Positions 1 through 1,447 of a stretch of DNA of 64,000 bases are shown piece by piece. The notes beneath the pieces were generated by a model. The model saw only the letters and a list, made by a program, of their open reading frames with translations. It was not told the origin of the DNA and made no database searches. This DNA is from Lacimicrobium alkaliphilum (GTDB taxonomy: Bacteria; Pseudomonadota; Gammaproteobacteria; Enterobacterales; Alteromonadaceae): assembly GCF_002591895.1 (NCBI RefSeq), contig NZ_NISX01000008.1:1-64000 (forward strand), given 5' to 3'. Each line of letters begins with the position of its first letter. The stretch's first letter is position 1. A program made the translations under genes and the position numbers.

Positions 1-202
1 GTCGAAGTGGCGCGCATTTTAGAGATTTCTGCCTCGCCGTCAAGCTTAAATCATGGATTTGGTAATTTTCTTTGATTTTATGATTACTTTATAACCAACC
101 GATTGTTTTCTGTGCCATTTTGTTTATTTTTTGTTAAGTTGAACTCTGTCACCAGATTTTAGTCCTATTAACCCTGATGTACCTTTTTGTTGGAATCCGC
201 AA

Positions 203-973
203 ATGAAGAAGATGCTCTGCTCAACGATAGTCCTTTCCATGTGCGCGATATGTCCGGTTCTGGCAGAAGAGTCAGTTTCATCCCCGATCAATGACAAAAC
301 CATCGACTTTATAGAAAAACAAGTTGAGCAGAATATGTCCGTGGGGCGTGCCGTAAAAAGTGTCGTCAGCCATTATCCTCAGGATGTTGAAATTGTTGTA
401 AGAACGGCCCTTGATTTATATCCAGACCAATACAGGGAAATCGTCCATGCTGCAATATCCGCACAGCCGGCACTAACAGAGGATGTTGTTAGTATTGCTA
501 TCGAGAAGCACCCAGAGCATTGCGCCAGTATTGTCCAGACAGCCATTAATGCAGAACCCAGCTATATAGACTTCGTAGTTAATGCAGCCACTCATGCCAC
601 CCCCGGAGAGCTGGAGGAAATCGTCAGAGTTGCGGTAATCACTGAGCCAAACTCAGCGGACACTATTGTACGCTCTGTAGCACAAGCTCAACCTAACCGA
701 CTCGCTGAAATTGTTACGACGGCTATTGGCGCTGTGCCACTCGTGGGCGAATATATTGTTGAAGCCCTGCTGGTATCTTATCCTGACAGCACAGAAACCG
801 TGATTACTAGTGCCTTCAGACAATCCAGCCTCAGTGATAATGGTCTTCTGAGGATCCTTGCAGCTGCCAGAGGAGCTGGCCTGAGTGATGATAAGCTCAG
901 GGTTTATGCCCTGAATGGGGGGATTGAGGAAGAGGATTTTACCTCATTGATACAACAGCTTGATAAAGAGTAA
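203..973 (+). CDS. Exported protein of tandem 15-residue repeats, function unknown
   Basis: 256 residues. The N-terminus (MKKMLCSTIVLSMCAICPVLA) is a signal peptide, so the product is probably periplasmic or secreted. From about residue 50 to 205 the chain is an uninterrupted series of about ten 15-residue units with the pattern [IV]VxxA[IV]xxxPxxxxx, for example IVHAAISAQPALTED, then VVSIAIEKHPEHCAS, then IVQTAINAEPSYIDF. The spacing is exact while the residues diverge, which points to a helical solenoid. A non-repetitive C-terminal part follows, ending in an acidic stretch. I do not recognise the family. It converges on rplQ and shares its terminator. No enzyme motif is visible. Confidence 0.8.
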   Translation: MKKMLCSTIVLSMCAICPVLAEESVSSPINDKTIDFIEKQVEQNMSVGRAVKSVVSHYPQDVEIVVRTALDLYPDQYREIVHAAISAQPALTEDVVSIAIEKHPEHCASIVQTAINAEPSYIDFVVNAATHATPGELEEIVRVAVITEPNSADTIVRSVAQAQPNRLAEIVTTAIGAVPLVGEYIVEALLVSYPDSTETVITSAFRQSSLSDNGLLRILAAARGAGLSDDKLRVYALNGGIEEEDFTSLIQQLDKE

Positions 974-995
974 CGCTATAAACCATTAAAAGACA

Positions 996-1034
996 GACAA
1001 TAAAAAACCGGGCATAGCCCGGTTTTTTATTGTC
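996..1034. terminator. Bidirectional rho-independent terminator
   Basis: A perfect 18-bp inverted repeat with the 3-nt loop ATA. Its core is ACCGGGC/GCCCGGT, flanked by A6 and T6 runs. It lies between two convergent genes, the repeat protein and rplQ, and the T-run is correctly placed on both strands. It ends the alpha operon. Confidence 0.93.
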
Positions 1035-1042
1035 TCGGTAGC

Positions 1043-1447
1043 TTATTCAGCAACCACTTCCTCTGCAACGTCTTCTTCAACGTCAACAACAGGGCGATCA
1101 ACCAATTCAACGTATGCCATAGGCGCGTTATCACCGGTACGGAAGCCACATTTCAAAATACGAATGTAACCACCCGGACGCTCGGTATAACGTGGACCCA
1201 GGTCATTAAACAGTTTACCTACCACCTCTTTATCACCTGTACGGGCAAAAGCCAGGCGGCGATTAGCCACGCTGTCTTGCTTTGCAAGTGTAATCAGAGG
1301 CTCAATTACGCGACGCAGTTCTTTCGCTTTGGGCAGAGTCGTTTTGATGATTTCATGTTTCACCAAAGAACCTGCCATATTGCGAAACATCGCTTGACGA
1401 TGGCTGCTGTTGCGATTTAACTGACGACCACTCTTACGATGGCGCAT
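1043..1447 (-). CDS. rplQ: 50S ribosomal protein L17
   Basis: 134 residues. The start [18 protein letters not shown] and the motif PLITLAKQD identify L17 of the large subunit. The C-terminus carries an acidic Val/Glu tail (about 13 residues after DRPVVD). It is the last gene of the alpha operon (rpsM-rpsK-rpsD-rpoA-rplQ), 42 bp after rpoA, and is followed by the strong bidirectional terminator. Confidence 0.98.

Follow-up and report, generated by a model that had tools for sequence, protein, structure and literature searches.

The window (the whole stretch of 64,000 nucleotides that was analysed) opens with a gene whose product carries ten units of exactly 15 residues, a repeat that matched no described family in any library searched. 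Its fold, well supported as a prediction, is an alpha-solenoid with one helix of about 14 residues per unit; alpha-solenoids as such are already known. The N-terminus resembles a signal peptide by eye, as do those of most relatives, and the protein is predicted to be exported via Sec, in line with the earlier note, which had called it an exported solenoid (Table 1). If this reading is right, the known alpha-solenoids gain a natural type in which every unit of exactly 15 residues forms a single helix, and a widely conserved, unnamed envelope protein of marine gammaproteobacteria receives a first structural description together with its relatives.

Table 1. Features of the window in and around the repeat gene.
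Feature	Positions	Strand	Basis or remark
Upstream intergenic region	1..202	.	Reaches the contig start at base 1 of the window
Gene for exported 15-residue helical-repeat protein	203..973	+	Open reading frame with ATG start; 256 aa plus stop
Putative Sec-type signal peptide, residues 1-21, cleavage after VLA	203..265	+	By eye; low AlphaFold2 confidence at residues 1-27
Two N-terminal helices, residues 28-57, conserved S-[VI]-G-R-A-[IV]	284..373	+	Alignment, AlphaFold2, reading
Ten exact 15-residue units, residues 59-208, helix of ~14 residues each	377..826	+	Periodicity, alignment, AlphaFold2
Three C-terminal helices, ~residues 212-255, conserved AG...GG, without TAAG	836..967	+	Sequence, AlphaFold2, conservation
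Terminator-like hairpin between repeat gene and convergent rplQ	995..1035	.	Reported on - strand; consensus match only
rplQ (ribosomal protein L17), convergent neighbour	1043..1447	-	Named by its sequence; convergent copies in relatives

Every unit of the central region opens with a proline and carries the motif [IV]V..A[IV] or a close variant, and the ten prolines (residues 59, 74, 89, 104, 119, 134, 149, 164, 179 and 194) are spaced by exactly 15 residues. Over residues 23-256, BLOSUM62 self-similarity averaged 0.26, 0.51 and 0.38 at lags of 15, 30 and 45, respectively, and no other lag between 5 and 49 scored above -0.28. None of 5000 shuffled sequences reached the observed lag-15 value, and the top of the 45 lags across shuffles was -0.10. 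In an alignment of 25 sequences (A2, window protein counted), the segment from P59 to P194 is free of gaps in all 25 rows, and proline is found in at least 23 rows at nine of the ten proline columns; column 104 has it in only two. The earlier claim of about ten units of exact length is thus upheld by spacing, shuffles and alignment alike. By reading, N29 and N44 occupy the proline position of the same register upstream of P59, which brings the in-register units to about 12, followed by three helices outside the strict register. When units are compared throughout the family, those of equal parity are slightly more alike than those of different parity (0.86 against 0.69, label permutation p 0.015), and for this reason the true structural unit may be a two-helix hairpin of 30 residues; such a helix pair may be a better structural description than the single 15-residue unit proposed earlier.

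AlphaFold2 run with five sequences gave a mean pLDDT of 84.1 and a pTM of 0.71, and with the single sequence a pLDDT of 81.9 and a pTM of 0.68, with nearly identical helices. In the five-sequence model residues 1-27 are of low confidence; confident helices of about 14 residues, mostly separated by one residue, run from about residue 28-30 to 255, and disorder, which the earlier note had raised as grounds for rejection, was not predicted. A beta-solenoid was ruled out, the models being all-helical with and without an alignment. Foldseek searches against the PDB and against BFVD (viral structures) returned no match at E ≤ 1e-3. In the VIA comparison, the best row for the five-sequence model was 8cws_A (Z 13.8, rmsd 7.1, 237 residues aligned), which also matched the single-sequence model (Z 15.1, rmsd 3.3, 231 aligned). 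The top rows are designed repeat proteins, among them also DHR4 (5cwb; Z 11.0, rmsd 3.6, 129 aligned), and HEAT proteins come next with Z ≤ 9.3 and rmsd about 6 (SF3b: Z 9.3, rmsd 6.1, 225 aligned). The tool itself cautions that, for helical repeats, a Z below about 13 may reflect a mere common arrangement. No natural family stands out in this comparison, where absence proves nothing, and the structural comparison suggests a helical solenoid and no more.

The absence of a match to a known repeat, also claimed earlier, held across sequence libraries. The best matches of the window protein were at E 0.0076 in Pfam (below cut-off, to an unrelated family), 0.018 in NCBIfam, 0.028 in PHROGs and 0.0073 among PDB sequences, none of the last three convincing, and a Pfam scan of all 25 members of A2 gave only stray matches (best 0.00077, one or two members each). 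The alpha-solenoids of the HEAT, TPR, ARM and Sel1 types are likewise stacks of short helices that form a solenoid and a likely binding platform, but their units comprise two or three helices and about 31-47 residues, whereas the unit described here is shorter, a single helix in 15 residues (or a pair in 30) with a near-invariant proline. Membership in TPR, HEAT or Sel1 was accordingly rejected, since the period is wrong and neither the window protein nor the 25 members of A2 has a Pfam-A match to these families or to ARM; the earlier statement that the units are shorter than those of TPR, HEAT and Sel1 stands, with the weak pairing at 30 residues added. Designed helical repeats (8cws, 8cwy, 7mwr and DHR4 5cwb) and the designed alpha-toroids (dTor) are also stacks of short helices, but they are man-made and share no common descent with the window protein. 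The A2 profile matched dTor_12x31L (E 0.027) and dTor_9x31L (E 0.044) weakly, not significantly, and at the C-terminal end only. Among titles and abstract starts of open-licence papers, nothing describing this 15-residue repeat was found.

The repeat protein is widespread in its own family. A scan of genome contigs confirmed four relatives (in Lacimicrobium, Aliiglaciecola and two Bowmanella) among 76 pattern-matching stretches. At the level of the order, 25 of 295 genomes matched at E ≤ 0.001: 18 belong to the same family (own genome included), four to a second family (f15) and three lie elsewhere, these last comprising two proteins of the exopolysaccharide type discussed below and one low-complexity match that was rejected. 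Of the own family's 196 genomes, 124 matched at E ≤ 0.01, and these span 38 of 52 genera; by hand count the matches were strong (E ≤ 1e-39) in 118 and only weak in six. A sample of the class yielded six matches in 369 genomes (three family members, two of the exopolysaccharide type, one rejected), and no relative was found on plasmids or phages at E ≤ 0.01. The members of roughly 200 residues in a second family have no C-terminal helices. Three frames were set aside on inspection. One of 1808 residues (G292) is read through a run of N, the true match being the terminal part of a regular family member; another of 2668 residues (G262) consists of low-complexity repeats; and the match in G337 falls inside a frame that we take to encode a glutamyl-tRNA reductase.

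Weak profile matches led to a set of small exported proteins, called X here only, in exopolysaccharide clusters. Profile-profile comparison of A2 with an alignment of X proteins (A3) gave a probability of 97.1 and an E-value of 5.5e-11. The A2 HMM recognised 14 of 17 X proteins at E ≤ 0.003 (three missed, E 0.11-0.29), although most of the 17 had been found with A2 or A3 and are therefore not an independent sample; no match was obtained with 3400 shuffled sequences at E ≤ 0.01. Of the seven X proteins that had not been found through A2, four scored between 5.9e-5 and 2.8e-3 and three between 0.11 and 0.29. A search with A3 also returns the rRNA-linked family of the window protein, so that the relationship is seen both ways, with the shuffle control applying to the A2 direction. 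A2 has just one further match at E ≤ 10 in the own genome, an X protein (E 0.016; L045 9193-9657) encoded in an exopolysaccharide cluster, between LapD-like and Wzy-like genes. The window protein and the X proteins are thus related, and by sequence comparison would form one superfamily of distant members; part of the likeness could reflect convergence of simple helical repeats.

Like the window protein, X proteins have a signal peptide by eye and helical-looking repeats, often spaced by 14-15 residues. Unlike it, they mostly end in a segment with TAAG, often followed by a Gly-rich tail (S-x-N or S-x-S), and they are encoded in polysaccharide or lapG-lapD clusters, whereas rplQ adjoins the window gene, as does an rRNA operon in relatives. 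Among 23 X loci searched by tblastn, a LapG-like gene is present in 15, a LapD-like gene in 15 and a Wzy-like gene in 14; in all, 21 of the 23 carry one or more of these genes or another polysaccharide gene, the two exceptions being L128 and L130. X genes adjoin lapG- and/or lapD-like genes, often ahead of a Wzy-like gene, at L045 (6376-9657), L031, L032, L046-L049, L052, L122, L124, L125, L129 and L131-L134. TAAG is found in 19 of the 25 X frames at the 23 loci. According to an excerpt of PMC8295476, LapG cleaves CdrA at TAAG near the CdrA C-terminus. It is conceivable from these sequences that X proteins are a family of small LapG substrates; a search of titles and abstract starts of open-licence papers found no report of small LapG substrates beside lapG-lapD. 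The LapA-type retention module NF033682 is matched by two of 11 X proteins (best 2.9e-5), one of them scoring below the curated cut-off, and was not matched by the window protein in the NCBIfam scan. The X profile also touches frames of 5983 and 4483 residues in two genomes, at the same segment, which would fit LapA-type adhesins.

X proteins differ at their C-termini. The Gly-rich tail, with S-x-N or S-x-S at its end and no obvious membrane segment, was seen at L031, L032, L045-L050, L052, L122-L124, L126 and L127, and is possibly a sorting or tethering signal. The proteins of a second class, at L129-L132 and L134, have no such tail and stop almost exactly at the TAAG site, a few residues after TEATAAG or a similar sequence; this class gave strong matches in five of 290 genomes, some with more than one copy. 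The X protein of the own genome (contig C11) has no exact TAAG despite the LapG- and LapD-like genes that precede it. At the edge of the same exopolysaccharide cluster, L045 18583-19377 encodes a protein with a C-terminus that we take to be PEP-CTERM-like.

By direct reading, the 256 residues of the window protein contain neither TAAG nor a Gly-rich tail, and by eye its last helices resemble the TAAG-carrying ends of X proteins. It is tempting to speculate, although we consider it rather unlikely as a whole, that exported helical-repeat proteins with 15-residue units form a superfamily not yet described, in which the window protein would represent the rRNA-linked branch without TAAG; other branches would be small LapG substrates encoded beside lapG-lapD in exopolysaccharide clusters, compact helical rods held and released under c-di-GMP control instead of a giant adhesin. 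The relatives offer a testable idea, namely that the substrates of LapG proteases are not giant adhesins alone but include small helical-repeat proteins encoded in exopolysaccharide clusters.

Conservation was analysed in 65 members, of median mature pI 4.6, with 'exposed' positions assumed from the helical pattern. The conserved columns are the prolines, the A/I/V of the helix cores and a small number of Tyr, Ser, Glu and Gly residues (S46, Y58, Y73, Y77, E118, Y121, G226 and G240), and no catalytic-looking set was found among them, which favours a structural or binding role. The explanation that we favour, quite plausible if just short of probable, is a non-enzymatic scaffold of the envelope or matrix, a rod-like, Sec-exported alpha-solenoid that binds a polymer or a protein along its helical surface. 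Such an acidic protein, with about 12 in-register helices, mostly started by proline and capped by three more, would most likely act within the periplasm or immediately outside the cell, where a rigid curved scaffold could bind envelope or matrix polysaccharide, or protein, along the surface of successive helices. An envelope or matrix role is our best guess because the superfamily is shared with proteins of exopolysaccharide and lapG-lapD clusters; counting against a polysaccharide role, the neighbours of the window gene itself (rRNA genes, rplQ) are not polysaccharide-related. Scaffold function and ligand, like any benefit of the adjacency to an rRNA promoter, are our inference.

The same fold would serve a periplasmic adaptor between proteins, or a chaperone-like scaffold of the TPR or HEAT kind, with no link to exopolysaccharide and with the likeness to X proteins due to the shared repeat fold only. 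Alpha-solenoids typically bind proteins, the weak top matches in Foldseek include TPR and HEAT-like proteins, as does VIA with SF3b, and most relatives have no polysaccharide genes near the repeat gene. This is a serious possibility, though we regard it as somewhat doubtful: the profile matches to X proteins exceed those to shuffled sequences, and the sole second match in the own genome is an exopolysaccharide-cluster protein. A structural or matrix protein released into the medium, perhaps as a closed ring or fibre, would suit the signal peptide, the exact repeats, the acidic composition, the weak dTor matches and the 30-residue pairing. It is nevertheless improbable, as no secretion signal beyond Sec was recognised, the toroid matches fall short of significance and cover one end, and there is no evidence of assembly.

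The genomic setting of the gene is shared by many relatives, as a check of genomic partners suggested earlier brought out. Of 13 loci examined with Rfam, eight have rRNA upstream, and in the other five the available sequence ends within 0.5 kb upstream. In one of the eight (L013 1-546) the divergent upstream gene is not a 16S but a 23S rRNA, present with its 5' part. In 40 further loci, picked from own-family matches having upstream sequence (the genome of L054 being already among the 13), a divergent 16S starts 417-805 bp upstream in 26, and 10 reach the contig end at 285-670 bp; contig breaks are expected at rRNA, yet are no proof of rRNA at those loci. The remaining four have no 16S upstream and keep rplQ. 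Convergent rplQ lies within 600 bp in 16 of 26 loci, and it was found in 19 of the 40 further loci, in two of them at distances of 650 and 2044 bp. The second family shows the order rRNA - gene - rplQ too, at L023 and L025, so this arrangement is probably old. A divergent rRNA operon presumably precedes the window gene in this genome too, and would itself lie outside the window. A necessary link to rplQ was rejected, as some loci keep the rRNA neighbour without rplQ and others the reverse. The arrangement may be plain inherited gene order. That it is instead functional, divergent expression tying a protein that serves fast-growing cells to growth rate, would agree with the frequency of divergent 16S, the further loci ending at contig breaks and its recurrence in the second family. 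We find this very unlikely, since the four loci that lack 16S and keep rplQ show that inherited order suffices, and an exported protein cannot directly act on ribosomes.

Comparison of the window gene with the Lacimicrobium copy gave a pN of 0.13 against a pS of 0.76, synonymous sites being saturated, which indicates purifying selection on the protein. The chance that the frame is spurious or decaying is negligible, for relatives keep its length and register, nonsynonymous changes are far rarer than synonymous ones, and nothing was found in its support. Downstream, beyond the convergent gene that we take to be rplQ, lie more genes presumably for ribosomal proteins, also on the minus strand. 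The hairpin between the repeat gene and rplQ, from a search that found three terminators against 1.6 expected, possibly acts bidirectionally.
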